From NCBI RefSeq assembly GCF_024345185.1, contig NZ_BROB01000011.1, positions 1 to 64,000 of the forward strand: a stretch of DNA of 64,000 bases, written 5' to 3'. The DNA is from Levilactobacillus humaensis. GTDB lineage: Bacteria; Bacillota; Bacilli; Lactobacillales; Lactobacillaceae. The notes below the pieces were generated by a model, which was not told where the DNA came from, made no database searches, and saw only the letters and a program-made list of their open reading frames with translations. The position numbers and the translations under genes are program-made. Positions 1 through 54,351 of the stretch are shown here, in pieces (the first letter of the stretch is position 1; each line of letters begins with the position of its first letter).

Positions 1-76
1 CGGTGGTGTAAACTGGCAAGAAGCGCCAGTTTACACCACCGCCACGGCTGGCTCCATCCCTGGCCTCCTCCGGCTA
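1..76 (-). repeat. Three-hairpin interspersed element, copy A (cut by window start)
   Basis: Only the GCCGGAGG end of the element and its first hairpin are inside the window, in reverse orientation. The first hairpin is a perfect 17-bp stem (about 1-17 with 25-41). Its sequence differs from the other copies, but it sits in the same place relative to the terminal repeat. It is the left partner of the head-to-head pair completed by the copy at 366-550. No coding content. Confidence 0.8.
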
Positions 77-365: not shown

Positions 366-550
366 TAGCCGGAGGAGGTCAGGGGTGGAGCCGGCCGTGG
401 TGGTAACGTTAGACCGAGTGAACTTCTCGGCCTTACGCTACGGGCGACTTTGAAGACACGTGCCCTTCGTGGCTTCAAATCGAGCGAGAAGCCTGATTTT
501 TAGGCTGAAGCGTCCCCACAGCAGGTGGAACCCCTGACAGCCGCAGGCGG
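366..550 (+). repeat. Three-hairpin interspersed element, copy B
   Basis: Full-length copy running from TAGCCGGAGG to CCGCAGGCGG. Hairpin 2 has CACG/CGTG where other copies have CCCGC/GCGGG, and hairpin 3 has AGCCT/AGGCT where others have AGCCC/GGGCT; both are compensatory changes. It lies downstream of the DUF2929 gene, which is transcribed leftward, and forms a head-to-head pair with copy A. Confidence 0.9.
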
Positions 551-580
551 TCCTTCACGCCATTTATAAAACTAATTCAA

Positions 581-2323: not shown

Positions 2324-2366
2324 AGGTCTAGTGACTACCCATAGTGGGTGGTTGCTAGACCTTTTT
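2324..2366 (+). terminator. Terminator of the antiporter gene
   Basis: AGGTCTAG (2324-2331) pairs with CTAGACCT, with an inner ACTACCC/GGGTGGT stem, followed by five T residues. The truncated repeat copy C begins immediately after the T run. Confidence 0.9.
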
Positions 2367-2443
2367 GCGGCTTCAAATCGAGCAAGAAGCCCGAGGGGCT
2401 GAAGTGTCCCCACAGCAGGCGTAATCCCTGGCAGCCGCAGGCA
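2367..2443 (+). repeat. Three-hairpin interspersed element, truncated copy C
   Basis: Only the 3' half survives: the second arm of hairpin 2 (CTTCAAATCGAGC), hairpin 3 (AGCCCGAGGGGCT) and the terminal inverted repeat. The break is exactly at the T run of the preceding terminator, so the 5' half was deleted or the copy inserted in truncated form. It lies between convergent genes. Confidence 0.85.
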
Positions 2444-2547
2444 ACCAGCATACAACTAATTTATCGGGTAAAACGAATTCCACTAAAAACATGCGAAAAA
2501 TACCGAAGAAATTTCGTTAGTACTAAGTAGGGAGGCGGCAATCGGCA

Positions 2548-5519: not shown

Positions 5520-5740
5520 GCCGGAGGTCACCAGACGCCACCCTGTGGGGTGTGCCGCGGTGCACGGTTAGGAGCTTCGTCCTGTGGGGCACGTCCGAAG
5601 CCAAAGGGCGGTCTTCGAACTCGCCTTTAAGCCCCCAAACCGTGGTCTTAAAGACGTCCCGTGCTGTAAGGTCGGAGAATCACCGACCTTACAGCACCGA
5701 CACGGGACTGCGCTTCTAACCGTGCACCGCTACCCGCACA
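5520..5740 (-). repeat. Divergent double element D, left half (reverse orientation)
   Basis: Left half of a 429-bp composite (5520-5948). The composite is bounded by 31-bp inverted repeats at 5520-5550 and 5918-5948 that match at 28 of 31 positions. The reverse complement follows the same plan as the common element: a stem ending in CACGG, a TTTAAGACC-type hairpin and a CCCCACAG block. Internal stems include GCGGTGCACGGTTAG (5557-5571) with its complement at 5716-5730, and a GTGCTGTAAGGTCGG hairpin. ORFs here are not believed to be genes. Confidence 0.75.
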
Positions 5741-5778
5741 AAGTGTTTTTGAAGAAGTTATTTGAAATAAAGTTTAGC

Positions 5779-5948
5779 TGGAGGTAATCAGACAGAGCCC
5801 TGTGTCGGTGGTCTTAGTCGAGGTCCTGTCTCGACTTAGACCACGGCCAACTTTGAAATTCGCGGGTTGTGCGAAGTTCAAGGTTGCCCTGAAGACCGTT
5901 CTTTGGCTTCAGGTCTGCCCCACAGGGTGGCGTCTGATTGCCTCCGGC
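5779..5948 (+). repeat. Divergent double element D, right half
   Basis: Right half of the composite element, forward orientation. It runs from AGCTGGAGGTAATCAG through a hairpin closed by GTGGTCTTAGTCGAG and CTCGACTTAGACCAC, then ACTTTGAA and a CTGAAGACC/GGCTTCAGG hairpin, to the CCCCACAG block and the terminal inverted repeat. It ends only 29 bp before the ribosome site of the response-regulator gene. A 38-bp AT-rich spacer (5741-5778) separates the halves and might hold a promoter. Confidence 0.75.
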
Positions 5949-5993
5949 GAACAATCTAAAACAAAAAAGATAAAGTCAAAGGAGGAATGCCCG

Positions 5994-8063: not shown

Positions 8064-8151
8064 TGTAAAAATTTGGGCAAACAAAGTTGAACAAACAGAC
8101 TAATAAACGGCACCCATTGGGGTAAACTTTCCGACTGGTTAACAAGCAGTG

Positions 8152-8335
8152 TAGCCGGAGGAGGTCAGGGATGGAGCCAGCCGTGGCGGTAGCGTTAGAC
8201 CGAGTGGTTTTTCTCGGCCTTACACTACGGGCGACTTTGAAGACCCGCGCCCCTGGCGAGGCTTCAAATCGAGCGAGAAGCCCAAGGGGCTGAAGCGTCC
8301 CCACAGCAGGCGTAATCCCTGGCAGCCGCAGGCGG
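8152..8335 (+). repeat. Three-hairpin interspersed element, copy E
   Basis: Full-length single copy between two rightward genes, beyond the upstream terminator. Hairpin 1 has GTAG/CTAC where other copies have GTGG/CCAC, a compensatory change. The flanks 8064-8151 and 8336-8440 hold no gene; the latter probably contains the promoter of the downstream regulator. Confidence 0.9.
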
Positions 8336-8455
8336 CCTTTTCCAATTTGTTTTTACACATCACCATCACAAGGAAAGTTTTATTCCCGCCGGTTGTATGG
8401 TAAGATCTGAAGCATTAGAACGAATTGGCAAGTGCAGCATAAGGAGCTTTCGAAG

Positions 8456-13324: not shown

Positions 13325-13337
13325 GTTCGGATTGGTA

Positions 13338-13526
13338 GCCTGCGGCTGCCAGGGGTTACGCCTGCTGTGGGGACCGCCTGCAGCCAAAGGGCGGGCTTCC
13401 GGCTCACTTGGAAGCCACGCTGAGAAGCACGAGTCTCCCAAGTCGTCCCAGGCTGTAAGGCCGAGAAAACCGCTCGGTCTAACAGGCCTCGTCACGGCTG
13501 GCTCCACCCCTGGCTTCCTCCGGCTA
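13338..13526 (-). repeat. Three-hairpin interspersed element, copy F (reverse)
   Basis: Full-length reverse copy starting 14 bp after the stop of the maltose phosphorylase gene. It would be transcribed as the 3' UTR of the maltose operon. Hairpin 2 is more divergent than in other copies (tggaagccacgctgagaag). It is the left partner of a head-to-head pair with the copy at 13846-14028. Confidence 0.88.
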
Positions 13527-13635: not shown

Positions 13636-13690
13636 AAAAATGGCGTCATAACAGTATCCATTTGGATAGCTGCTATGACGCCATTTGTTT
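13636..13690. terminator. Bidirectional terminator-like hairpin between paired elements
   Basis: AAATGGCGTCATA (13638-13650) pairs perfectly with TATGACGCCATTT (13674-13686), and an inner TATCC/GGATA stem extends it. T-rich flanks lie on both strands. It sits between convergent units, so it probably ends the maltose transcript and perhaps the opposing one. Nothing else was seen in the 319-bp spacer 13527-13845. Confidence 0.75.
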
Positions 13691-13845
13691 TATTTGTTTT
13701 GGTTTAGGCTTTTTGATTCAAGTTTGGCCAGCCACTGACTGTGACTGGGCTTGCCAGCACACGGCAAGTATCAGCCAGGATCTTGGTCTTAACCGCTTGA
13801 TGGAATCGAGACGCTTAAGCTCGCCGTAATTGTCGTGGACGATCC

Positions 13846-14028
13846 TAGCCGGAGGAGGTCAGGGATGGAGCCGGCCGTGGAGGTGGCGTTAGACCGAGTG
13901 TTCTTCTCGGCCTTACACCACGGGCGACTTTGAAGACCCGTGCCCCTGACGGGGCTTCAAATCGAGCGAGAAGCCCCAAGGGCTGAAGCGTCCCCACAGC
14001 AGGCGGAATCCCTGACAGCCGCAGGCGG
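13846..14028 (+). repeat. Three-hairpin interspersed element, copy G
   Basis: Full-length forward copy. Hairpin 2 reads CCCGT/ACGGG, compensatory relative to CCCGC/GCGGG at 20812-20994. It ends 22 bp from the stop codon of the leftward gene at 14051, mirroring copy F, which abuts the stop of the rightward operon. Confidence 0.9.
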
Positions 14029-14050
14029 CAAATTTATCACAGACTGCAGT

Positions 14051-20811: not shown

Positions 20812-20994
20812 TAGCCGGAGGAGGCCAGGGATGGAGCCGGCCGTGGTGGTGGCGTTAGACCGAGTGTTTTTCTCGGCCTTACACCACGGGCGACTTTGAA
20901 GACCCGCGATTCTGGCGGGTCTTCAAATCGAGCGAGAAGCCCACAGGGCTGAAGCGTCCCCACAGCAGGCGTAATCCCTGGCAGCCGCAGGCGG
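20812..20994 (+). repeat. Three-hairpin interspersed element, copy H
   Basis: Full-length single copy between two rightward genes. Hairpin 2 is perfect: TTTGAAGACCCGC pairs with GCGGGTCTTCAAA. Hairpin 3 reads AGCCC-ACA-GGGCT. Regions 20648-20811 and 20995-21230 contain no gene I can support. Confidence 0.92.
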
Positions 20995-21232
20995 ACCACT
21001 TTATCAATCTGGTCTTAGGTTTCAATAAAACTAACAGCAATGAAAGCCATGCCAATGGTTTAACACGGGGAATGAGGAGATCTTCGCAAAAAATTCATTT
21101 TTCGGGCGTAAAAAGGGTGGATTCTCTTGCTAAGGTTAGCCTAAGCCCGAGATAGTAGGGTTGTTGCCCTACGTCGGTTGGCCAAGGATCTTGAGAAATT
21201 GTTAAAAGGCAGTCAACTGTGGGGGTAATGGG

Positions 21233-23175: not shown

Positions 23176-25332
23176 ATGATGTTTCATTCAGAAGATCAAA
23201 ACGTTCACTACAAGATGTATAAAAAAGGGAAGACTTGGATTTTCGCAGGGATCGTGACGACGGCTTTAGCGTTGGGTGTTGCGGCACCACAAGCGGCCCA
23301 CGCCGACACGACGGATGATGAGACAGTGGCGACGACCCAGGGGAGCGAGAAGACAACAACTGGCGAGGTGACACTCACAACTCCTAAGGCCGAGGCTGAA
23401 GAGGTTACGGTGCAAGATACCACGCAAGACGCGAGCGAGGAAAAGGTTCAGGGAGCGACCCAAGACGCAGAAAAACAAGCTGAACAGTCGGACGAACGCA
23501 AACAGAATGACCAGGCAGAACCAGCCGAAATAGACAAAACCGATAAAAATGTAACCGCTAACAATGACGAACAGAAAGACAAAATCGACGACAAACAGAC
23601 GACGGTGGTTTCAACCCAGTCCACTGACACTGAAGAACAGGTGGACCAGCAGGTTAAAAGACTGGCCAGATCTGTTCAAGCACCGGTGGCAACGCCTAAA
23701 ATTGCTGTCAAAGATCTCGAGACGATTGACCAGTGGATGCCAAATCAGAAGCTCCAGCAGGTTGTCTTATTACAACTACGGAAGCAAAACCCAGGGAAGA
23801 CCTGGAATAGTGTGGCTGATATTACCAAGGATGACATGGCGTTGTTAACCAGTCTGGTGGCCTATGGGTCGAACGAATCCGGTGGGATCGATACCTATAA
23901 CAATCGTAAGCCATTCTCGATTGAAGGGCTTCAGTATGCCGTTAACCTGACCCGGATTGAAATGGGGACCAACTTTAACTATGCTTCTCAGAAATACTAT
24001 GGAGACATCGTTGACATTTCACCATTGGCGGACCTGACCAAGCTACAAACGGTCTATCTCCAACAGAACCGGATCGAAGATATTTCGCCATTGAAGAATT
24101 TAACGAACATCACGAAACTCCAATTACAATTTAATGCGATCTCTGATTTCACGCCAATCGCCGGGCGCAAATATAGTACCTTCAGTGCGACGAACCAGGT
24201 GGTTTTCTTACCACCGATTAAGGTCAATTCTAAGACGCGAAAGGCTCATCTGGTCTTCCAATTCAAGAACGAAAACGGCGAAATTGTTCCACTGGAAGCG
24301 CGTAATGGGATTGCTTATCCTGACCGAGTTGTGGGATCGGGAAATTCCATTTCCTTGGTTTACAAACTGTATTGGAATGGGGGAACTGCAGCAGTCGATG
24401 GTGAGGGTGGTCTGTACTTCACGGGACTAAAGGATCAAATTCCCGGGATTACCGAGTATCCAGGATTTAACATTGACCCGCTAGACGAGAACTTTTATTT
24501 GACGGGGGCCGTGACGACACAATTCCCTGGCGGTTATAGTGTTGATATCGGGGTTATCCAGCCTTACGTCATCGGCGACATGGGTGGGACCGTCACCGCG
24601 CACTACCAGGATAAGAATGGCAAAGAACTCGCACCGGATGTGGTTCTTGACGATGGGTTCATTGGCGATGACTACACGACCACGGCGGCTGAGGTTGAGG
24701 GCTATACGCTCACGAAGACCCCAGATAACGCCACTGGAAAATATGTCGAGGGACCAACTGATGTCTATTACATCTATGAACCAAAGACTGACCCGGTTGA
24801 CCCACCAGTGGTTAACCCCGCAGCTGATATGACGGTCACCGTGCACTATCAAACGGCGGATGGCAAGACCGTGGCGCCAGACCAAATCTTTACGGGGAAG
24901 CAGGGGACAACCTATACCACGAGTCCAGTTACGGTTGAAGGCTATGCTTTAGTCGAAACGCCAGGTAATGCTTCCGGTACCCTGGGTGACGGTGATATCA
25001 CGGTCACGTACATCTATGCCCCATTGGATACCGATGGCGATGGCGACTTGGTTGATCCGGAAGATCCGGATACGGACACCGACGAGGATGGTGATGACGG
25101 TGATGTCGCAACGCCAGACACCGATGATGGCGGCAGTGGCGACCAGATTGTCACCGGCAAAGAGCCAATCAAGGGTGGCACAACGAACTTAGCCAGTCGG
25201 CCGGCCACCAATTCGGCGAAGACTACGTTACCACAAACGGGTGAACAACATCGTTCCACAGGTCTGTGGGGTATTGTGGTTCTGCTGGGGTCGTTGTTAG
25301 GACTAGCCGGTACGAGACGGAAAGAACAATAA
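23176..25332 (+). CDS. Surface protein 1: KxYKxGKxW signal, LRR, two MucBP repeats, LPQTG anchor
   Basis: A 718-residue sortase-anchored adhesin. The N-terminal extended signal HYKMYKKGKTWIFAG belongs to the KxYKxGKxW class, with cleavage expected after AAHA (about 42). A Thr/Glu/Gln-rich stalk runs to about 170. A cap starting IDQWMPNQKLQQ precedes internalin-like leucine-rich repeats (about 260-330, e.g. LQTVYLQQNRIEDISPL). Two MucBP-type repeats (about 475-535 and 550-610; HYQDKNGK, HYQTADGK) lead to an Asp-rich linker and LPQTG at about 685, a membrane segment and RRKEQ. MucBP domains bind mucin in studied proteins; the ligand here is not known. Two adjacent ATGs fit the GAGGAGGG site; 23179 is equally possible. 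It is the first of six consecutive anchored proteins. Confidence 0.9.
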   Translation: MMFHSEDQNVHYKMYKKGKTWIFAGIVTTALALGVAAPQAAHADTTDDETVATTQGSEKTTTGEVTLTTPKAEAEEVTVQDTTQDASEEKVQGATQDAEKQAEQSDERKQNDQAEPAEIDKTDKNVTANNDEQKDKIDDKQTTVVSTQSTDTEEQVDQQVKRLARSVQAPVATPKIAVKDLETIDQWMPNQKLQQVVLLQLRKQNPGKTWNSVADITKDDMALLTSLVAYGSNESGGIDTYNNRKPFSIEGLQYAVNLTRIEMGTNFNYASQKYYGDIVDISPLADLTKLQTVYLQQNRIEDISPLKNLTNITKLQLQFNAISDFTPIAGRKYSTFSATNQVVFLPPIKVNSKTRKAHLVFQFKNENGEIVPLEARNGIAYPDRVVGSGNSISLVYKLYWNGGTAAVDGEGGLYFTGLKDQIPGITEYPGFNIDPLDENFYLTGAVTTQFPGGYSVDIGVIQPYVIGDMGGTVTAHYQDKNGKELAPDVVLDDGFIGDDYTTTAAEVEGYTLTKTPDNATGKYVEGPTDVYYIYEPKTDPVDPPVVNPAADMTVTVHYQTADGKTVAPDQIFTGKQGTTYTTSPVTVEGYALVETPGNASGTLGDGDITVTYIYAPLDTDGDGDLVDPEDPDTDTDEDGDDGDVATPDTDDGGSGDQIVTGKEPIKGGTTNLASRPATNSAKTTLPQTGEQHRSTGLWGIVVLLGSLLGLAGTRRKEQ

Positions 25333-25350
25333 AAATAATTTAATTCATGA

Positions 25351-25384
25351 ACGGTTGGAACTATAATTCCAACCGTTTTTTATT
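25351..25384 (+). terminator. Terminator of surface protein 1
   Basis: ACGGTTGGAA and TTCCAACCGT form a perfect 10-bp stem, followed by TTTTTTATTTT. Confidence 0.93.
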
Positions 25385-25523
25385 TTGGGAGGAATGATTT
25401 TAACACCAATTCTAATTGTGACTCTTTTTACAAAGTGGTTAAAAAAGGTTAGTTAAAGGGTTTACAGTGCAGGCATACGCGGTTAAACAGAGGACTATTA
25501 GTTACGTCCCAACACAATACCCC

Positions 25524-25588
25524 TTGAACTTTTTTCGGCAGCGGTTACAATGAGAGTGACAGTAGTTGTCCATATTTACTGATATGTG
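25524..25588 (+). promoter_or_regulatory. Promoter of surface protein 2 (class II) with downstream dyad
   Basis: TTGAAC (25524-25529), a 16-bp spacer and TACAAT (25546-25551). A dyad CCATAT...ATATGTGG follows at 25570-25588. The same promoter form and spacing, also with a dyad just downstream, occur at 28125-28152. The 167-bp 5' region to the start codon otherwise shows nothing clear. Confidence 0.7.
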
Positions 25589-25718
25589 GTAATCACAACC
25601 TATGATTTAACTTATTAGTCGATTATATAAGAACCACAAATAGTGTTCACAGCCGATAATCAACGGTTGATTGAGACGGACTAGGGCAATGTCAAACTTT
25701 ACGAGGAGGAAGTTTATC

Positions 25719-28016
25719 ATGCGGAATAACAAACTAACAACAACTAAGGTGCACTACAAGAGTTACAAGGCAGGCAAACGGTGGGTTTTCGCCGGGATTG
25801 CAACTGTCGCAATGGGGTTAGGCTTGACGGGGATGGATGTCACGGCTCACGCGGCCGATGTTCAAGGAACTGAAGCCACACAAACACAAGTAGCCGATCC
25901 AGATGCAATATCAAAGACGGGGACATTAACAACGACGACGGAAAAGGAAACGACGGCGGAAAATAGTGAGACCCCGGTAACGACGCCAGATAAGGATAAG
26001 ACGCCAACAACAGACAAAGACAAAACGCCAGAACCAGTGGTAGCGCCAGACAAAGACAAAACGCCAGAACCAGTGGTAGCGCCAGACAAAGACGACACAC
26101 CGGCACCAACAGTAACGCCAGACAAAGACAAAACGCCAGCACCAACAGTAACGTCAGACAAGGCCAAAACACCGGCACCAGTGACAACGCCTGAAAAGAC
26201 CGAAATGCCGAAGAATATGAGTAGAATGGCGGCACCGGCCGTAGCTGCAGTGAAGGTCTATGATCCAGCAGACATCCAAGGTAAGGATGCCTCGGAATGG
26301 ATGCCAGATGCAGGGTTACGGGATATAGTTGAATCGGCCTTGCTATTTAACCACAACATTAAGGCCACCGATTCTAATCTTTACCAATACGTTGGGGAAA
26401 TGCTGGATCTAGATGATAATAACTATACTGGCAACCTCAAGATTCAAGACTTTGAGGGGTTACAGTACTTCACCAACTTGAACCATGTTGTCTTGCATTA
26501 CTACCCAAAGGATGGGTTTATCAACTTTGACTTTGCGCCCAACATGACTGAGTTCGCGTATGAAGGCAAGGCCAATGATGCGCCAAGTGATTTCGATGCA
26601 CAGACCTTCATGGATAGCTATTTGAGTGGAAATCAGAATCTCCAATTCTTAGTTGTCCACAATCTTTTGAAGGGAAACTTACCAAACCTTTCGTCCTACA
26701 CCAAGCTCTCTCGGTTAGACTTGAGTACGAACCATTTGACTGGTGATTTGACCCAACTCAAGGGCTTAACCAGCGTGAACATTATGGATGTTGACCACAA
26801 CCAGCTGACTGGGGAGTTACCCGATCTGGTTACAGGGACGCAGTTGACTGAACTCTTTGTTCAGAACAATCAGTTGAGTGGCACGTTAAACCCTGTCTAT
26901 GGCAGTACCTCACGGTTAATTGATGTTTGGGTCGGTCATAATAATATGACCGGTGATCTCCCAAGCTTCAAGGGCTTTACTGGAAGTTTCGATGGCACGT
27001 ATAACCACTTCAGTTCTGGTTTGAACAATATGCCTGGAGCTATTAATACGTGGTACCAAACCTTGACGGGTGGGACTTACAATCTGACGGATGACAAGAA
27101 CACCTTTGATCCAATCAAGAATGTTGTCTCAGGCATTCAGAATGCTCAGACTGGGGAATTCGATCCCACAGATAGTCTCTTCCTCTATGCTTATGGTGCC
27201 GGTAAGGTCTACTACGGCGAACCAGATCCAACCTTTACGGCAGAAGAACTTATCAGTTGGTTGGGCAGTCAACAGGATGTTTCATCTCAGTTCCAGAGAC
27301 AAGCGACGACCGATGACCCATTTGGGTTCAATTTGGTTGCTAGCAAAGACGTTCAGCCCGGGACTTACACGATGGGTGTGGTCAACGACAAGTACAGTAA
27401 TGGGGGTTACATCGCCTTCATTACCTTTAAGATTACCCGCGATGCACCAGTTGATCCTGGAACACCTGTTGACCCAGGTACGCCAGTCGATCCCGTTCAG
27501 ACTGGGACCATTACCATTGTCAACGTCGACCAAGATGGCAAGACCTTGAGTACCAAGACGTTAACAGGGACTGCCGGAGATACCTACACGGCAACTGCCG
27601 ACACATTGGATGGCTACAAGTTAACGAGTCCAGCCAGTGTCACCGGAACCTACACGCAGTCCGGATCAACAATTACCTTCACCTACGCCGCCGTGACTAA
27701 CGGTGGGGATGGCGACAAGGTTGTTGTGACACCAGACAAGCCAGGTAAGAAGACGGATAACAACAAGCAAACGCCAACTAACAGGGGTGGTCAAGCAGCG
27801 ACCGTAACTGCTAAGACGAATGGCAAGGTGCAAAGCCTTGGCACCAGTCATGCCGCAGCCCAAGCTCAGCAACAACAGTTGGCTTCGCCTGCTACGACTA
27901 ACGAAACCACGTTGCCACAAACGAATGAACACCGGACGGCAGCGGCCTGGGGATTGGCTTTATTGGGTACAGTTCTCAGTCTTGGCGGACTGGCCTTACG
28001 GCGGAAACAGAACTAA
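25719..28016 (+). CDS. Surface protein 2: KxYKxGKxW signal, plant-type LRR, MucBP-like repeat, LPQTN anchor
   Basis: A 765-residue anchored surface protein. The signal motif HYKSYKAGKRWVFAG (residues 12-26) is cleaved near AHA (about 45). A Pro/Thr/Lys/Asp stalk carries imperfect repeats of the form DKDKTPEPVVAP (about 80-165). A cap region starts ASEWMPDAGL. Leucine-rich repeats (about 315-425) have the LDLSTNHLTGDL and HNQLTGELPDL form, resembling plant-type LRRs, unlike protein 1. One MucBP-like repeat (about 590-650) ends in a GGDGDKV segment. A Lys/Gln-rich linker precedes LPQTN (about 732), a membrane helix and RRKQN. The ATG at 25719 follows GAGGAGG; the longer frame starts at 25671. 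It has its own promoter and terminator. Closest relative in the window is protein 3. Confidence 0.9.
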   Translation: MRNNKLTTTKVHYKSYKAGKRWVFAGIATVAMGLGLTGMDVTAHAADVQGTEATQTQVADPDAISKTGTLTTTTEKETTAENSETPVTTPDKDKTPTTDKDKTPEPVVAPDKDKTPEPVVAPDKDDTPAPTVTPDKDKTPAPTVTSDKAKTPAPVTTPEKTEMPKNMSRMAAPAVAAVKVYDPADIQGKDASEWMPDAGLRDIVESALLFNHNIKATDSNLYQYVGEMLDLDDNNYTGNLKIQDFEGLQYFTNLNHVVLHYYPKDGFINFDFAPNMTEFAYEGKANDAPSDFDAQTFMDSYLSGNQNLQFLVVHNLLKGNLPNLSSYTKLSRLDLSTNHLTGDLTQLKGLTSVNIMDVDHNQLTGELPDLVTGTQLTELFVQNNQLSGTLNPVYGSTSRLIDVWVGHNNMTGDLPSFKGFTGSFDGTYNHFSSGLNNMPGAINTWYQTLTGGTYNLTDDKNTFDPIKNVVSGIQNAQTGEFDPTDSLFLYAYGAGKVYYGEPDPTFTAEELISWLGSQQDVSSQFQRQATTDDPFGFNLVASKDVQPGTYTMGVVNDKYSNGGYIAFITFKITRDAPVDPGTPVDPGTPVDPVQTGTITIVNVDQDGKTLSTKTLTGTAGDTYTATADTLDGYKLTSPASVTGTYTQSGSTITFTYAAVTNGGDGDKVVVTPDKPGKKTDNNKQTPTNRGGQAATVTAKTNGKVQSLGTSHAAAQAQQQQLASPATTNETTLPQTNEHRTAAAWGLALLGTVLSLGGLALRRKQN

Positions 28017-28030
28017 TAATAGTTTTTTGG

Positions 28031-28060
28031 AGGGATTGGCTGTGAAGCCGATCCTTTTTC
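28031..28060 (+). terminator. Terminator of surface protein 2
   Basis: GGGATTGGCT and AGCCGATCCT form a stem around GTGA, followed by TTTTT. Confidence 0.88.
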
Positions 28061-28124
28061 TTTGCAAAGTTGTGTTTAGAATGTTTGCTGACCGAATTAG
28101 TTATGCCTAATAAACGATTCTAAC

Positions 28125-28193
28125 TTGAACTTTTTGTGGGGCGACCTACAATGAAGGTGAAGAGATTGCCACACTTTGACTAATCTGTGGCAA
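28125..28193 (+). promoter_or_regulatory. Promoter of surface protein 3 (class II) with downstream dyad
   Basis: TTGAAC (28125-28130), a 16-bp spacer and TACAAT (28147-28152), the same layout as 25524-25551. A dyad TTGCCACA (28165-28172) and TGTGGCAA (28186-28193) follows the presumed start point and could be an operator or a 5' UTR hairpin. Confidence 0.7.
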
Positions 28194-28353
28194 CTCGAGC
28201 TTATGAGTTCAGCGGAACTCACAAAAAGGACGTTTTAGGAGTGACTTGCCAGCGTGACTAGTAGACTGGTGGTCCGTAGAAGAGTATTGGGATTAAACGT
28301 TTAAGGAGAACGGGTCGTGACGAACGGACTATCCTCCAGGGAGGAGAACCATT

Positions 28354-30513
28354 ATGCGGCAGTTAAATGTAAGCGAAACCAAAGAACATTACAAGAGTTA
28401 TAAGGCAGGCAAACGCTGGGTTTACGCCTGTCTCACGGTCGCAGCACTTGGATTGGGTACCTTAGGAGTCACAACCACGGCTAATGCGGCAACGACAAGC
28501 GATCCGGCGGTTGAAACCACTCAGAGTAGCGAACAGCCAGCATCGTCGGAGAAGGAAGCAGCCGGCGATCCTGTCAAGACGGATGGTCAAACGACAGAAC
28601 CTGAAACGAAACAAAATGAAACGAAACCGGCTGAAACACCTGCGCCAACCAAGAATGAGGACTCGGTACAGCAAGACCAGCCAGAGACGACAACGGAACC
28701 AGCTAACACGGTGACATCCGAGAAAAAAGAGGTCACTCAGGAACCAGAAAAACCGGTTGTGGCAAGTGCACCGGCTCAGAATATGACCCGCATGGCAAAG
28801 ATCGCGCCACGGGAGACGGCACCAAGTGTGGTTGGTCAAGATGCCTCGGAATGGATGCCAGATGCCGGCCTTCGGACCTGGATCGAAGGGGATTTATCGC
28901 AAAGTCAGGGCGAGGCCGTGACGGATGCCAATCTGTCGACATACCTCGATCATAGCTTGAACCTGGATACGAACGATAGTAGTTATCCCACGGCTACCGG
29001 TGTCGCCTCATTTGAAGGGTTACAATACTTTACGAATTTGACTTCTTTCCGGGCAACGGACCCACAGATTTCAGCGGACAGTCTGCCAGACTTTTCCTTT
29101 GCGCCCAACTTGCGTTTCTTTACTTATCTTGGAGATAATCAACACTTTACGGATGCCGCTCAATTTATGAAAGACCACCTGATTCAAAACACGGCCTTGA
29201 CGAATTTAGCGCTCAACTATAGTCTTCAAGGAAGTTTTCCGGACTTGTCGGCTTATCAAAAGCTAGAGACCATTAACTTCAGTAATAACCAGTTAACGGG
29301 GACCTTACCCGATCTGGGGAACTTACCGGTCCTGGACCGTCTCGACGTGGAGAATAACCAAATGTCAGGGACTTTGCCGAACTTTGGAAATTGGCCAGTA
29401 TTAAATGTTTTGAATATCTCCAATAACGATTTTAGTGGGGCCTTGCCAGACTTGAAGAATTTTAAGGCCTCGGATTTCCGGGAGTATTATAATCAGTTGT
29501 CTTCTGGCTTACTCACTTTCTATAATGACCAGGGCCAGGCCAGTGATAATTACAGTTGGTATCAGTTCTTGAATGGCAAGACCTACAACTTGTTTGGTAC
29601 GGATCAGACCTTCGATCCCTTAACTGGGGTGGTTGCGGGGATTCAAGATATGAAGACTGGGCAGATCGATCCCAGCGAGAACTTTATCGTCTATGGCTTT
29701 TCAAAAGGTGCCTGGGTTGTTTCGGGGGACTGGAACGATGCCGGTAGTAAGGCTAACTTCTTAAATTGGGCTGCTGGACAATCGAGTGCCACTGCCGATT
29801 TCGTGAAGGTGGCCGATCCAACTAATCCATTGGGATTCAATCTGATAGCTAGTCCGGATACGCCGGCGGGAACCTATACGTTAGGTATCATGAATGAAAA
29901 TTATGACAATGATCTCGGGGGCTATGTAGGTTTTATCACCTTCAAGATTACTCACGACGCTCCGGTAACGCCAGTCACGCCAGTTGATCCCACACCGAGT
30001 CAACAGACCGGAACGGTCACAATTGTCGAGGTTGATCAGCAAGGGAAGACCTTGCACCAGCGGACAATGACTGGAAAAGTCGGTGACACCTATACAGCAC
30101 AGGCTGACCAGCTGGCCGGCTACAAAGTTACGGGCAAATCCAACGTTAGTGGCAGCTACACCGCGGCTGGTGACACAGTTACCTTTACGTATGCTACGGT
30201 TGATAACGGCGGCGATGGTGATCAGGTCTTGCCGGACAAGCCGGCAACCCCAACTAAGAAAGATCAGCAGGCAGAGGTTAAGGGCAATGGCGGACAGGCG
30301 GCAGAGATTTCAACGCCAACGAAGTCAGCCAAGGCAATGACGGCGACTGTGACGCCGCTGCGCACGCAACAGTCGGTTGAACAAACCAAGGATCGTCAGA
30401 CGGTTACTTTGCCACAGACCAATGAACAGCGGACGCTTTCGCCAGTCGTATTGGGATTGGTAACACTACTGACAACGTTGGGACTGGGTGGCTGGTTACG
30501 CCGTCACAACTAA
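28354..30513 (+). CDS. Surface protein 3: KxYKxGKxW signal, plant-type LRR, MucBP-like repeat, LPQTN anchor
   Basis: A 719-residue paralogue of surface protein 2. The KEHYKSYKAGKRWVYA signal is cleaved near TANA (about 45). A Thr/Glu/Lys stalk (about 46-150) leads to a cap ASEWMPDAGLRTW. The LRR region (about 295-375) holds LTGTLPDLGNL, MSGTLPNFGNW and FSGALPDLKNF repeats of plant-like type. One MucBP-like repeat (about 545-605) is followed by GGDGDQV. LPQTNEQRT lies at about 688, then a membrane helix and RRHN. The ATG follows GGGAGGAGA. It is presumably exported by the accessory or general Sec route and linked to peptidoglycan by sortase; neither enzyme is in the window. Confidence 0.9.
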   Translation: MRQLNVSETKEHYKSYKAGKRWVYACLTVAALGLGTLGVTTTANAATTSDPAVETTQSSEQPASSEKEAAGDPVKTDGQTTEPETKQNETKPAETPAPTKNEDSVQQDQPETTTEPANTVTSEKKEVTQEPEKPVVASAPAQNMTRMAKIAPRETAPSVVGQDASEWMPDAGLRTWIEGDLSQSQGEAVTDANLSTYLDHSLNLDTNDSSYPTATGVASFEGLQYFTNLTSFRATDPQISADSLPDFSFAPNLRFFTYLGDNQHFTDAAQFMKDHLIQNTALTNLALNYSLQGSFPDLSAYQKLETINFSNNQLTGTLPDLGNLPVLDRLDVENNQMSGTLPNFGNWPVLNVLNISNNDFSGALPDLKNFKASDFREYYNQLSSGLLTFYNDQGQASDNYSWYQFLNGKTYNLFGTDQTFDPLTGVVAGIQDMKTGQIDPSENFIVYGFSKGAWVVSGDWNDAGSKANFLNWAAGQSSATADFVKVADPTNPLGFNLIASPDTPAGTYTLGIMNENYDNDLGGYVGFITFKITHDAPVTPVTPVDPTPSQQTGTVTIVEVDQQGKTLHQRTMTGKVGDTYTAQADQLAGYKVTGKSNVSGSYTAAGDTVTFTYATVDNGGDGDQVLPDKPATPTKKDQQAEVKGNGGQAAEISTPTKSAKAMTATVTPLRTQQSVEQTKDRQTVTLPQTNEQRTLSPVVLGLVTLLTTLGLGGWLRRHN

Positions 30514-30542
30514 TTTTATAAGCAAGCAAACTGAATTTTATC

Positions 30543-30574
30543 AGGTGCGTTCATTTGAACGCGCCTTTTTTTTG
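30543..30574 (+). terminator. Terminator of surface protein 3
   Basis: AGGTGCGTTC and GAACGCGCCT form a 10-bp stem around ATTT, followed by a T run. Confidence 0.93.
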
Positions 30575-30655
30575 AACTGATCACGACCCCCAGTGACGGC
30601 TTAAAAGGTGATTAGTTATGACTGTTCAGTACACTATGAATTGTTTATCTTATAC

Positions 30656-30684
30656 TAGATTTTTCTGAGCAGATAGGCTATACT
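30656..30684 (+). promoter_or_regulatory. Promoter of surface protein 4 (class I box)
   Basis: TAGATT (30656-30661), a 17-bp spacer and TATACT (30679-30684). The box TAGATTTTTCTGA is identical to that at 23047, upstream of surface protein 1, which has the same domain plan. Confidence 0.6.
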
Positions 30685-30781
30685 GCGCTTACACGAAAAT
30701 CGTGAGGTTTAATTATCATTTTTATAATAAAAATGCTGAATTTATGCGGTTATTATGAAATGAATTTTAGGAGGGAACAGG

Positions 30782-33055
30782 ATGTATTGGGGAGAAAAGG
30801 AAGGGTTTAAGCTAACGTCTAATCGTGGTAAGGGGTGGTTGATGACCGTCGCCATCCTTTCGAGCCTAGGGAGTTCGGCCGGGGCGCCGCTCGTGGGGCA
30901 TGCGGCGACGTCAGCGACGACGGTGCAACAGGAGAGTGTGAGCGCAGCTGCTGGAGAAGCGGCCACGGCGACGGACGATACGACTGCAAGTAGTGAGAGT
31001 GCGGCGACTGAATCAGCCGAGGACACGACTACGGCGGCCACTGAGGACCCGGTTGATAGTTCAACCGAAGAGAGCAGTGAAGCCGACACAACCACCGACG
31101 ATAGCTCGGCAGAAAAGCCGAGTGACCCGGCGGACATCCAGACCGAAAAGCCACGGCAACGCAAAAAAGAAAGCGAATCCATCGATCAATGGATGCCCAA
31201 TAAAAGATTACAGCGGGCCGTTTTATATCAGCTTCAAAATCTATCACCAGTGCCAGATGACGAGCCAACCTGGAATTCCGTCGCGGATATTACCAAGGAG
31301 GACATGAAGCGCCTCAAAGGGATATACGTGGGAGCCCTGGGTGGTGAGGATGGCGAATCAACTTACAACCCGGATGGATCAGAATATTCAATTGAAGGCA
31401 TTGAGTACGCCACAAATTTAGAAACGGTGGACTTTGGCGGTGGTGGAATGAACGATGGTCCGCAACAAATGTTTGGGAATCTTGTGGACATTTCGCCATT
31501 GGCCAAGCTACCCAAGCTGACGACGGTGCTCTTGCAGAATAACCAGATTGAGGATATTTCACCATTAGCTCATCTGAAGAACGTGACCTGGTTGGACCTG
31601 ACCTTTAACCACATCTCAGATTTTTCGCCGTTAAAGGGGATAAGTTACGAGACGAACGAGTTCCGTTTTCAATACCTTGAACGTCGGACCCCCATCGTGG
31701 TGGATGGCAAGACCCGGAAGGCCCACATTAACTCTGGCATTAAGCTCCAAGATGGCACGTTTGCGCAAAACCCAATTGCCAAAAATTTGATAACTTGGCA
31801 TTATTACGCAGATGAAGATGAGGACAAAACTTTCCAATTCTACACCAAGGGGGGAGAGTTGACCGCGGACGCCGAGGGTGGTCTCGACTTTTCAGAGATT
31901 AAGGATCAAGAGCCAGGGATTACCGGCCATGGCGTCATTCCCTTGCCCGATAAGTATTATCTCAATGCGCAGTATGTGACCGCCGATGGCAAGTATGCCT
32001 TCTTATTGATGCAACCGTACAAGCTAGGGGATGTCGCCGCGCCAGTCACGGTACAGTACCACGATGAGAACGGCCAAGAGGTCGCACCGGATGCGGCACC
32101 GCTGGAGGGGATGATGGGAGAGACCTACACGGCGAAACCGATCGACATTCCTGGCTATGATCTGGTGAAGAGTCCTGAGAATGCCCAAGGAACGTTTGGC
32201 AAAGACCCAATCACGGTGACGTTTACCTACAAGAAACAAGCCGTGAAGTCGACGGTTGAGGTACGCTATCAGGATGAGGCGGGCAATAAGATTGCCGATT
32301 CAGCCACCTTAACTGGGGAGGTGGGTCAGCCTTACACCACTGAAGCCGCAAATATCTCGCATTACGAGTTGATTGAAACACCGGAGAACGCGACGGGAAC
32401 GTACGCCGAAGAACCAACGACGGTTATCTATCGCTATCGTAAGGTGGAACCCATTGCGACGAAGCACAAGTTAACCATTCACTATCAAGATGAAACGGGG
32501 AAGAGCCTGCACGAGGACACTGTGTTGAATGGGGAGCCTGGAGAAACCTACCAAACGGAGGCCTTGTCGATCGACGGGTATAAGTTGATGAATACGGTCG
32601 GGCAGACTACCGGAAACTACGGTGAATCCGATCTGGAGATCACTTACGTCTATGCCCCAATTTCAACCGGTGGGGATGGCGATGGTGGTGTGACGCCGCC
32701 GACGACGGATCCGCAACCACCGGTGAGCCCGACGGATCCGCAGAACCCAGATGGCGGTCTCGATCCGGATGAAACGCCAGATGCTGAGAATCCCAATGAA
32801 CCAGATCCAGATAAACCCGGTTCCGAGGTGATCTCTGGCAGTGATGGCGATATGGTCACGGGTGAAGAACCCGATCAAGCTAGCAGTACGTCCTCTGTGG
32901 GGCCAGCAGCTAGTCTAAGCACCTATGACGATGCAACGCCGAGCCACACCTTTGGCTTACCACAGACCAATGAACAGCGGACCATTGCGGCCTGGCTAGG
33001 TGGCGTGCTCCTGTTGGGTAGCCTTTGGGGCTGGTGGGGTCGTCGCCGGCACTAG
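30782..33055 (+). CDS. Surface protein 4: diverged signal, LRR, three MucBP repeats, LPQTN anchor
   Basis: A 757-residue anchored protein of the same type as protein 1. The export signal is diverged: FKLTSNRGKGWLMT keeps G-K-x-W but lacks the Tyr and first Lys of KxYKxGKxW. A cleavage site follows VGHA. After an acidic Ser/Thr stalk come the IDQWMPNKRLQR cap and internalin-like LRRs (about 225-290; LTTVLLQNNQIEDISPL). Three MucBP repeats (about 420-480, 490-550, 560-625; HDENGQEVAP, RYQDEAGNK, HYQDETGKS) precede a Pro/Asp/Glu linker. LPQTNEQRT lies at about 726, then a membrane segment and RRRH. The ATG follows AGGAGGG. It has its own promoter and terminator. Confidence 0.88.
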   Translation: MYWGEKEGFKLTSNRGKGWLMTVAILSSLGSSAGAPLVGHAATSATTVQQESVSAAAGEAATATDDTTASSESAATESAEDTTTAATEDPVDSSTEESSEADTTTDDSSAEKPSDPADIQTEKPRQRKKESESIDQWMPNKRLQRAVLYQLQNLSPVPDDEPTWNSVADITKEDMKRLKGIYVGALGGEDGESTYNPDGSEYSIEGIEYATNLETVDFGGGGMNDGPQQMFGNLVDISPLAKLPKLTTVLLQNNQIEDISPLAHLKNVTWLDLTFNHISDFSPLKGISYETNEFRFQYLERRTPIVVDGKTRKAHINSGIKLQDGTFAQNPIAKNLITWHYYADEDEDKTFQFYTKGGELTADAEGGLDFSEIKDQEPGITGHGVIPLPDKYYLNAQYVTADGKYAFLLMQPYKLGDVAAPVTVQYHDENGQEVAPDAAPLEGMMGETYTAKPIDIPGYDLVKSPENAQGTFGKDPITVTFTYKKQAVKSTVEVRYQDEAGNKIADSATLTGEVGQPYTTEAANISHYELIETPENATGTYAEEPTTVIYRYRKVEPIATKHKLTIHYQDETGKSLHEDTVLNGEPGETYQTEALSIDGYKLMNTVGQTTGNYGESDLEITYVYAPISTGGDGDGGVTPPTTDPQPPVSPTDPQNPDGGLDPDETPDAENPNEPDPDKPGSEVISGSDGDMVTGEEPDQASSTSSVGPAASLSTYDDATPSHTFGLPQTNEQRTIAAWLGGVLLLGSLWGWWGRRRH

Positions 33056-33095
33056 GTCAGAGGTTTTGTAAAACAAATGAAAATAGACAGATTCT

Positions 33096-33142
33096 TTAAA
33101 AAGACGATCTTCACCGTTAAAGGTGGAAATCGTCTTTTTAAG
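33096..33142. terminator. Terminator of surface protein 4
   Basis: AAAAAGACGAT and ATCGTCTTTTT enclose an inner CACC/GGTG stem. The A and T tracts make it potentially bidirectional. Confidence 0.88.
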
Positions 33143-33200
33143 TGATCGTTACTCAGTTAAAAAGTAGAAGCCATGTTTATTCTATGAAAACATGGACATC

Positions 33201-33264
33201 TTTGATTTAACGGCTTTCTCGGTTATAATGAAGTTAGATACATATCCAAATTCATAAATATGTA
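33201..33264 (+). promoter_or_regulatory. Promoter of surface protein 5 with downstream dyad
   Basis: TTTGAT (33201-33206), a 17-bp spacer and TATAAT (33224-33229). A dyad TACATAT (33239-33245) and ATATGTA (33258-33264) follows, in the same relative place as the dyads of proteins 2 and 3. Confidence 0.65.
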
Positions 33265-33306
33265 ACACTACTAATTAAGCCGAGATCCATCAGGGAGGAC
33301 ATCATC

Positions 33307-35448: not shown

Positions 35449-35454
35449 AATGTT

Positions 35455-35491
35455 AGAGGATCTCGACGATTGTCGGGGGTCCTCTTTTTTT
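35455..35491 (+). terminator. Terminator of surface protein 5
   Basis: AGAGGATCTCGAC and GTCGGGGGTCCTCT form the stem, followed by a run of T residues. Confidence 0.88.
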
Positions 35492-35640
35492 TGCATTATA
35501 GGAAGACAATTTCTATGCTTAATCTACACACTATTAATTAGTTTTGGATAAAAATAATTTCAAAATAATGTTGAATTCTGGTCGCGCCAGGGTGAGAATG
35601 GGAAGTGGATACAGCTTGGAAAGGTAGGGATTTAATCGAT

Positions 35641-53632: not shown

Positions 53633-53650
53633 TGATTGGGGTAAATTGGT

Positions 53651-53817
53651 CGCCTACGGTTGCCAGGGGTTACGCCTGCTGTGGGGACCACCTGCAGCCT
53701 GAAAGCCTCGCTGAAGAACCACGAGTCTCCCAAGTCGTCCCAGTCTGTAAGACCGAGCAAAATACTCGGTCAAACAGACTCATCACGGCTGGCTCCACCC
53801 CTCGCCGCCTCCGGCTA
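53651..53817 (-). repeat. Three-hairpin interspersed element, copy I (reverse)
   Basis: Slightly shortened reverse copy beginning 19 bp after the stop of the lectin gene, so it would form the 3' UTR. It is the left member of a head-to-head pair with copy J. Terminal repeats and hairpin 1 (CCGAGCAAAATACTCGG) are clear; the region of hairpin 3 is reduced. Confidence 0.85.
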
Positions 53818-54152: not shown

Positions 54153-54335
54153 GAGCCGGAGGAGGTCAGGGATGGAGCCGGCCGTGGTGGTGGCGTTAGA
54201 CCGAGTGACTTTCTCGGCCTTACGCCACGGGCGACTTTGAGGACCCGCGTTCTTGGCGGGGCTTCAAATCGAGCGAGAAGCCCAAGGGGCTGAAGCGTCC
54301 CCACAGCAGGCGTAATCCCTGACAGCCGCAGGCGG
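54153..54335 (+). repeat. Three-hairpin interspersed element, copy J
   Basis: Full-length forward copy. Hairpin 1 is closed by GTGGCG/CGCCAC. It precedes the terminator of the leftward aldo-keto reductase gene, so convergent genes flank this pair too. Confidence 0.9.
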
Positions 54336-54351
54336 TCTTCTACCACTTCCT

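Follow-up and report, generated by a model that had tools for sequence, protein, structure and literature searches.

A dispersed three-hairpin intergenic repeat of Levilactobacillus humaensis and other Lactobacillaceae with a co-varying fold

The element described here is a structured intergenic repeat of about 185 bp, dispersed in the genome of Levilactobacillus humaensis and in other Lactobacillaceae; each helix of the model built for it shows covariation. We interpret it, with moderate confidence, as a non-coding, non-autonomous chromosomal repeat of part of this family in which folding would be selected, mainly as single-stranded DNA. The starting material was a window of 64 kb (G000:C11:1-64000), part of a 2.37-Mb draft genome (G000, hereafter the host genome).

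Copies in the window and structure of the element

A covariance model called R1 was made from 43 copies and briefly calibrated, so that its E-values are rough. Searching the window with R1 confirmed the repeat: 9 full-length copies and 2 partial ones were recovered, one of the latter clipped at the contig start and the other decayed. Five of the nine full copies belong to the training alignment of R1; those starting at 5554, 5775, 13846 and 54153 were recovered from outside the training set. The core pattern of the element gave 54 matches at up to 3 mismatches and 0 in the reversed control. Every remaining R1 match in the window is weak and repeats one of these places on the opposite strand, since the element is quasi-palindromic and its reverse complement also receives a weak R1 score. 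The G+C content of the nine full copies is 56-66%, against 50% for the window.

The reference copy is the full type 1 copy at 8152..8336 on the plus strand (171.8 bits with R1, as a member of the training set), for which a blast search of the host genome gave 40 scored matches, itself included, at 87-100% identity. On its strand, hairpin 1 occupies 8189..8228 (from the sequence, the alignments and the pair table), hairpin 2, CGACTTTGAAG.../...CTTCAAATCG, occupies 8232..8271 (sequence and pair table), and hairpin 3, AGCCC/GGGCT, occupies 8279..8291 (sequence and single-copy fold). Hairpin 3 is missing from the RNAalifold consensus of the training alignment, where its arm lengths vary. In the predicted fold the three hairpins are surrounded by a closing stem (8164..8323, plus strand) made of imperfect terminal inverted repeats, 8164-8172 pairing with 8315-8323. 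Read on the plus strand, the unit starts with AGCCGGAGG and ends near GCAGGCGG. Immediately outside the left end, at 8132..8152 of the same strand, lies a weakly conserved 21-base motif of consensus GTTGTGGTAAARAACAATCTT, which reaches at most 0.64 bits per position in a logo of 199 copies; a shorter weak motif is found beyond the right end.

Most other copies of the window are organised in dyads, that is, pairs of neighbouring copies facing each other by their left ends. The full copy at 366..551 (plus strand, 180.9 bits) is the right half of a dyad with the clipped left-end part at 1..76 (minus strand, 69.5 bits over model positions 1-76), to which it stands head-to-head. Two divergent full copies, at 5554..5732 (minus strand, 107.7 bits) and 5775..5951 (plus strand, 101.0 bits), are the left and right halves of a dyad between a yfhO gene and a response-regulator gene, and the first of them is adjoined by a right-end-like fragment of a further copy (about 34 bp, 5520..5553, minus strand), in which 5520-5550 matches 5918-5948. 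The copies at 13335..13526 (minus strand, 178.6 bits) and 13846..14029 (plus strand, 176.3 bits) are both full and form another dyad. In the last dyad, the left half at 53649..53817 (minus strand, 136.9 bits) has a deletion in the hairpin 2-3 region, seen as a gap in the alignment, and the right half at 54153..54336 (plus strand, 176.9 bits) is full. The full copy at 20812..20995 (plus strand) scores 177.3 bits, and the decayed copy at 2342..2445 (plus strand, 35.5 bits; 2369-2442 by blast) is recognisable in its right half only.

These results refine a first-pass annotation of the window, made from the sequence alone, which had reported nine copies and a divergent double form sharing one plan. 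The copies are real and form one family with one plan; as a correction, R1 places those at 1-76, 13338-13526 and 53651-53817 on the minus strand. The "double form" at 5520-5948 resolves into two full head-to-head copies, 5554-5732 on the minus strand and 5775-5951 on the plus strand, together with the fragment of about 34 bp at 5520-5553. Hairpin 1 of copy 1-76, which had been described as wholly different, has parallels in the alignment among variants of this hairpin from other species of the genus.

Covariation of the predicted fold

For the nine full copies, the predicted fold falls 2.4 to 11.4 SD below shuffles of two-base blocks. In an alignment made from sequence only with MAFFT, 32 of the 39 predicted pairs contain at least one sequence changed on both sides with pairing kept; in the alignment fitted to the model, all 39 do. 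The latter comprises 37 matches (36 distinct, with 29 rows from other genera and 3 opposite-strand duplicate rows retained), and 95.6% of its cells are paired, compared with 64.7% in shuffles and 32-42% when the partners are slid. As the fitted alignment is biased toward the model, the MAFFT count is the cleaner test and the fitted one the broader, both counts ignoring phylogeny. The covariation of stems noticed by eye in the first-pass annotation, and its statement that structure is kept while sequence changes, are thus borne out. Two-sided changes affect 11 of the 11 model pairs of the closing stem (helix 1), and the outer stem of hairpin 1, of the GTAGC/GCTAC type, is variable and co-varies. 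Covariation is as strong in the internal hairpins as at the ends, and the loops and junctions are conserved in sequence.

Distribution among genomes and replicons

The first-pass annotation had proposed a search of the host and related genomes with a covariance model, and the results support a repeat-like dispersal. In the host genome R1 gave at least 141 matches at E<=0.001, corresponding, after removal of 2 opposite-strand duplicates, to at least 139 distinct places covering 24.6 kb, or about 1% of the genome; this is a lower bound, 150 of 528 candidates having been scored. Surveys with stricter filters detected the element in 82 of 301 Lactobacillaceae genomes, belonging to 10 of 40 genera, and in 12 of 295 genomes (5 of 74 genera) of a sample of the whole order, all 12 being Lactobacillaceae. 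Blast with a single copy was positive for 30 of 58 genomes, every one of the same genus. R1 positives of this genus number 15 among those listed, including three genomes missed by blast (G015, G022 and G034). An exact 20-base core was found in at least 95 stretches of named genomes, and among the 80 listed, 79 are from Levilactobacillus and 1 from a metagenome-assembled genome named "uncultured Lactobacillus sp.". The listed blast matches are 87-95% identical in the host genome, 87-94% in G008 and G032, and 75-80% in other species of the genus, showing that lineages possess their own subfamilies.

No match was obtained in 72,556 plasmids using three different copies as queries, in a collection holding at least 1 Levilactobacillus and at least 2 Secundilactobacillus records; with only one Levilactobacillus record seen, this test is weak for the genus. 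Likewise, one copy used as query found no match in 50,697 phages, and three exact motifs of the element found none in viral contigs. An element confined to chromosomes is the best reading of these searches.

Orientation of the copies and gene context

Among the 139 copies of the host genome, 37 pairs of neighbours are less than 500 bp apart, in a count cleaned of the opposite-strand self-overlaps that appear as negative gaps. Of these, 36 are head-to-head, 1 is same-strand and 0 are tail-to-tail, and the gaps inside the head-to-head pairs range from 32 to 335 bp. Among 19 loci from other genera, 7 also contain head-to-head pairs (L188, L192 and L204-L208). Apart from the double form, this pairing is new relative to the first-pass annotation. 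The partner in some dyads is a copy of a second, shorter subfamily ("type 2", about 165 bp) that recurs at unrelated loci, and the centre between the halves is not shared. Type 2 copies head-to-head with type 1 are seen at L249:5593-5756 and L253:4982-5146, as well as upstream of copies in L002, L004, L005, L017 and L019. A long hairpin at about 13640-13700 occupies the centre of the 13335/14029 dyad. It is kept in G008 (L156) with differences in both arms, and persists there though the flanking elements are remnants; the terminator scan gave the hairpin of the window no score.

The neighbouring genes were taken from a simple longest-ORF caller, and 30 of the 199 copies, without a called gene on one side, were excluded. 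Among the 169 copies so classified, 124 have their right end toward the 3' end of a gene, at a median distance of 62-73 bp. For instance, the right end of copy 13335-13526 lies 10 bp past the end (13324) of a gene assigned to family GH65 from ORFs and Pfam. Of the same 169 copies, 63 have a terminator-like hairpin to the left and 51 to the right, 17 copies being counted in both groups; the element is thus placed neither consistently within a transcript nor consistently beyond one.

Three simple rules of placement were tried and rejected. The left end does not specifically face a terminator: in the 186 of 199 copies with full flanks, terminators were found at 58 left flanks (9 after shuffling) and at 63 right flanks. 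The element is not always within a 3' UTR, terminator-like hairpins occurring on either side of it between genes. Nor was a promoter of its own seen close ahead of the left end at four window sites, which gave 0, 1, 1 and 3 promoter-like matches against 0.6, 0.5, 1.1 and 0.7 expected, the nearest one before a left end on the same strand being about 240 bp off. A second terminator scan of four window stretches returned 1 terminator-like site.

Comparison of copies at shared sites

Copies recur at the site between the divergent yfhO and response-regulator genes. R1 matches were obtained in 9 of the 10 species having this site in the fetched stretch (G000, G001, G002, G004, G007, G008, G017, G018 and G023), those of G007 and G023 being weak (26-29 bits). 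The contig of G007 starts within the site, and G015 holds just a gap of about 60 bp. The copies at this site (5554-5951 in the window) appear old and strongly folded, and the window pair is head-to-head with its right ends outward to both genes. This dyad is a candidate for recruited leader elements. In a tree of the copies from this site, same-site grouping is seen only between close species (G000/G008, G002/G018 and G001/G007). At the 3' end of the GH65 gene, compared in 12 species including that of the window, R1 matches are present in G000, G002, G009, G010 and G018, G008 retains a remnant, and the remaining six species have no match.

Between the host genome and G008, persistence is limited. 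Among the eight window copies from 366 to 20995, R1 detects a full G008 counterpart for one only, 5554-5732 (at L155:14723-14901); G008 has remnants at the 13335, 13846 and 20812 sites and a left end at 5775, and the 366 site lies just beyond the aligned block. So few full counterparts argue against a function at every copy. Between G002 and G018, most shared sites persist. Of nine sites common to these two genomes, the element is more diverged than the right-hand flank at 4, as if it had been replaced, and similar or more conserved at 3; the other 2, with opposite-strand hits, were left out of this flank comparison. The copy at L165:5199-5358, compared with L168:5757-5942, looks like a chimera, half resembling type 2 and half the same-site copy of the sister species, which suggests recombination between copies.

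Eleven same-site pairs were collected. In 5 of them the element is 92-96% identical, that is, conserved as much as or more than its flanks of 60-120 bp (0.78-0.92), suggesting that copies are functional at their sites and not purely parasitic, the survivors being a biased sample. Changes were counted in 8 of the 11 pairs, omitting two of 66% identity and one with opposite-strand hits. Two-sided changes preserving the pairing number 31, compared with 6.2 on average and 13 at most in the simulation. Three pairs of only 76-82% identity, possibly replaced copies, account for nearly all of them; the five pairs of at least 92% identity contain one. There is thus some evidence for constraint on resident copies, among which survivors are over-represented.

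Decay of copies and search for a mobilising enzyme

Eight regions of the host genome with lone or shortened ends were read. Five proved to be full, shortened or cut copies. In two (L210 and L211) both ends are joined with nothing between, AGG and AGC being common to the junctions by sequence reading, which shows that copies are lost through internal deletion. Replication slippage past DNA hairpins produces deletions between short repeats close to the hairpin base. The eighth region holds a lone right end with 1 mismatch at about L213:2286-2307 (G000:C13:68285-68306), some 210 bp from an opposite-facing copy (L213:2519-2682), and is probably a decayed half of a dyad. No long autonomous form was seen in the regions read around these lone ends.

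Direct matches between the two flanks of the 199 copies showed no convincing excess over permuted copies, so that no target-site duplication was detected. Inverted matches between the outer flanks exceed the permuted controls in few copies only. A comparison of empty and filled sites between relatives, which the first-pass annotation had proposed, could be made without yielding a clean pair, since what is missing from G008 at the 8152 site extends beyond the element.

The same annotation had suggested a TnpA-REP-like (RAYT) partner. The corresponding domain PF01797 (IS200/IS605-type, TnpA-REP) is present in 23 of 35 genomes of the genus, most of them drafts, and absent from 12, including G002, G011, G016, G030 and G032. 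These five are all blast-positive, with 60-277 first-look candidates of the element (277 in G002). RAYT/IS200 was accordingly rejected as the driver. The sole PF01797 match of the host genome, G000:C51:1747-2103, has an in-frame TGA. No mobilising enzyme was found in this PF01797 survey of 35 genomes, which counts against our preferred reading.

Nature of the folded molecule

The first-pass annotation had left the choice between a folded RNA and a single-stranded DNA. To narrow it, wobble pairs were counted in a non-redundant set of 133 of the 199 copies, kept at less than 90% identity after removal of near-identical ones (mean identity 0.65). The paired cells contain 3.6% G.U, 1.7% A.C and 2.2% other mismatches. 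In RNase P of the same genus, represented by 28 distinct sequences from 30 loci with a mean identity of 0.91, the values are 15.0% G.U and 0.03% A.C. T-boxes gave 11.4% G.U and 2.0% A.C in a sequence-only alignment of 17 sequences of mean identity 0.58, these being the loci among 30 fetched that the motif test could orient. Thus G.U is 3-4 times rarer in the element than in the two RNA controls, with a G.U:A.C ratio of about 2:1 instead of 444:1 (RNase P) and 57:10 (T-box), in a comparison that is unmatched since the controls differ from the element in divergence. So low a wobble content would be expected of a folded DNA molecule, or from mutual correction of the two arms, and the choice leans to DNA.

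A modest asymmetry between the strands persists. On the plus strand G.U exceeds A.C in 23 of 40 pairs and the reverse holds in 9, and the one-sided changes of the 8 same-site pairs, counted in both directions, comprise 33 G.T against 19 A.C. This excess hints at RNA, or at a fixed folded strand. It counts against the minus strand as the folded one, a candidate suggested by A.C mismatches in single copies, and fold energies are mixed: of 199 copies, 153 are more stable as the plus strand and 46 as the minus strand, the minus strand being favoured in 18 of 37 copies of the host genome. The strand is therefore not settled by predicted energy. The main tension is between the low wobble frequency, in favour of DNA, and the strand bias together with the conserved resident copies, foremost those of the yfhO site, in favour of RNA or a leader. 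Both readings may be true, of different copies.

According to our preferred reading, the element would spread inside chromosomes as a non-autonomous MITE- or BIME-like element, its folded strand, mainly as single-stranded DNA, being the substrate of a putative enzyme acting in trans or supplied by the host. Copies unable to fold would spread no further and decay, and a few old copies such as the yfhO/response-regulator dyad would be retained in place, where they may now act as leaders. That the element is instead a structured RNA family (a cis-acting leader, 3'-UTR element or small RNA) acting post-transcriptionally, its repeat nature being secondary, seems unlikely to us. The occupation of the yfhO site in 9 of 10 species (weakly in G007 and G023), the right ends directed toward gene 3' ends in 124 of 169 copies and the 33 to 19 excess of plus-strand G.U over A.C all speak for RNA, as do the one-sided changes of the five same-site pairs of at least 92% identity (14 to G.U and 8 to mismatches) and the two-sided changes, 31 against a simulated mean of 6.2, mostly from the three pairs that may be replaced copies. 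However, the wobble frequency and the G.U:A.C ratio are far from those of RNase P and T-boxes, terminator-like hairpins on either side leave the element not consistently in a transcript, the more wobble-tolerant strand is the antisense one at gene 3' ends, promoter-like matches at the four window sites (0, 1, 1, 3) compare with 0.6, 0.5, 1.1 and 0.7 expected, and Rfam is without a match.

We regard as improbable a classical MITE of a DDE-type insertion sequence, in which the terminal inverted repeats would be transposase binding sites and the internal hairpins incidental. Such an origin would agree with defined ends carrying imperfect inverted repeats that pair over 11 model pairs, with the high copy number and with the lineage subfamilies; it fits poorly with hairpins that co-vary inside as strongly as at the ends, the lack of a target-site duplication, the absence of a long form from the loci read, and the failure to find copies on plasmids, on which an IS200/IS605-type gene of the genus was found. 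It is also doubtful that the covariation arises from mutation rather than selection, template switching perfecting DNA hairpins and recombination spreading and homogenising the copies. Low wobble is what arm-templated correction would give, conversion or replacement fits the four of nine shared sites at which divergence of the element exceeds that of the right-hand flank, and one shared-site copy reads as a chimera. From mutation alone, nevertheless, neither the strand bias of wobble (33 against 19) nor the sequence-conserved loops and junctions would be expected, and the head-to-head rule and the dispersal are left unexplained.

We tentatively extend the preferred reading, of a repeat selected for folding mainly as single-stranded DNA, to a new chromosomal repeat system across a bacterial family, transmitted within chromosomes only. 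A host enzyme distinct from the known REP transposases would possibly copy, in single-stranded DNA form, head-to-head pairs of folded units of about 185 bases, some pairs being later recruited as leaders. With every helix co-varying and more than 100 copies in a single genome, the element offers an unusually good natural experiment for deciding whether RNA, single-stranded DNA or mutation itself is what selection on a repeat acts upon. It could also provide markers for these species and guide the search for a new mobilising enzyme.

Relation to described repeat families

No named family had been put forward for the element, and Rfam 15 agrees: the window has 0 matches at the gathering score, and every match obtained in four loci at E up to 10 fell short of that score. 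No published description of the element was recognised in the literature covered, most subscription journals being outside this coverage, and the part of the main text of RepRanger (PMC12306157) available to us contains no word starting with Lactobac. The nearest described kinds are BOX, EFAR/Efa-1, bcr1 and REPIN/BIME, compared here by description and not by sequence. The element is set apart from them in that it extends deep across genera, keeps to a fixed plan of three hairpins, follows a head-to-head rule and, in copy-rich genomes, lacks a Y1 partner.

REPINs and BIMEs mobilised with RAYT are, in the partial descriptions used, chromosomal, of high copy number and made of inverted pairs of palindromic units, a folded single strand being the likely substrate, all of which recalls the present element. 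REPIN/RAYT units are short single palindromes of 20-60 bp. In contrast, the present unit is about 185 bp long with a closing stem and three hairpins, and several copy-rich genomes are without PF01797.

EFAR repeats of Enterococcus faecalis are intergenic, palindromic miniature insertion sequences of about 170 bp, present in tens of copies; EFAR/Efa-1 integrates into stem-loop targets, parts of the target stem remaining at its termini. The element shares with EFAR/Efa-1, known to us from partial descriptions, its occurrence in Lactobacillales, similar size, intergenic location, palindromic character and structure; R1, for its part, has no listed match outside Lactobacillaceae in the 295 genomes of the order. 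In the portion of PMC2267715 at hand, Efa-1 is entered with size 163, copies 65(18), type I and as structured, and Bcr1 (bcr1) of B. anthracis with size 167. By this description bcr1 resembles the element as a structured intergenic repeat of similar size from Bacillota, and differs in belonging to another bacterial group.

The sections of PMC3049150 available describe BOX of Streptococcus pneumoniae as intergenic repeats of 67-637 bp with 125 copies in one genome, whose terminal inverted repeats pair together in an extensive predicted fold and whose spread mechanism is unproven. BOX is modular (boxA, boxB and boxC), has target-site duplications, is over-represented between convergent genes, and is reported mainly from pneumococcus and S. 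mitis, with related elements in S. suis (PMC3049150). As far as this description goes, the present element is likewise short, intergenic, of high copy number and over-represented between convergent genes, with paired terminal inverted repeats and an extensive fold. Unlike BOX, it has a fixed plan of about 185 bp, no detected duplication and head-to-head pairs, and occurs in 10 of 40 sampled genera.

Genes of the window

Apart from the repeats, the window contains six consecutive large ORFs of 696-781 aa at 23176-37692. The KxYKxGKxW signal is present in 5 of the 6; five have leucine-rich repeats as well as MucBP domains, and an ice-binding-like adhesive domain is found in the sixth. This stretch is, judging from the predicted domains, a surface adhesin cluster.
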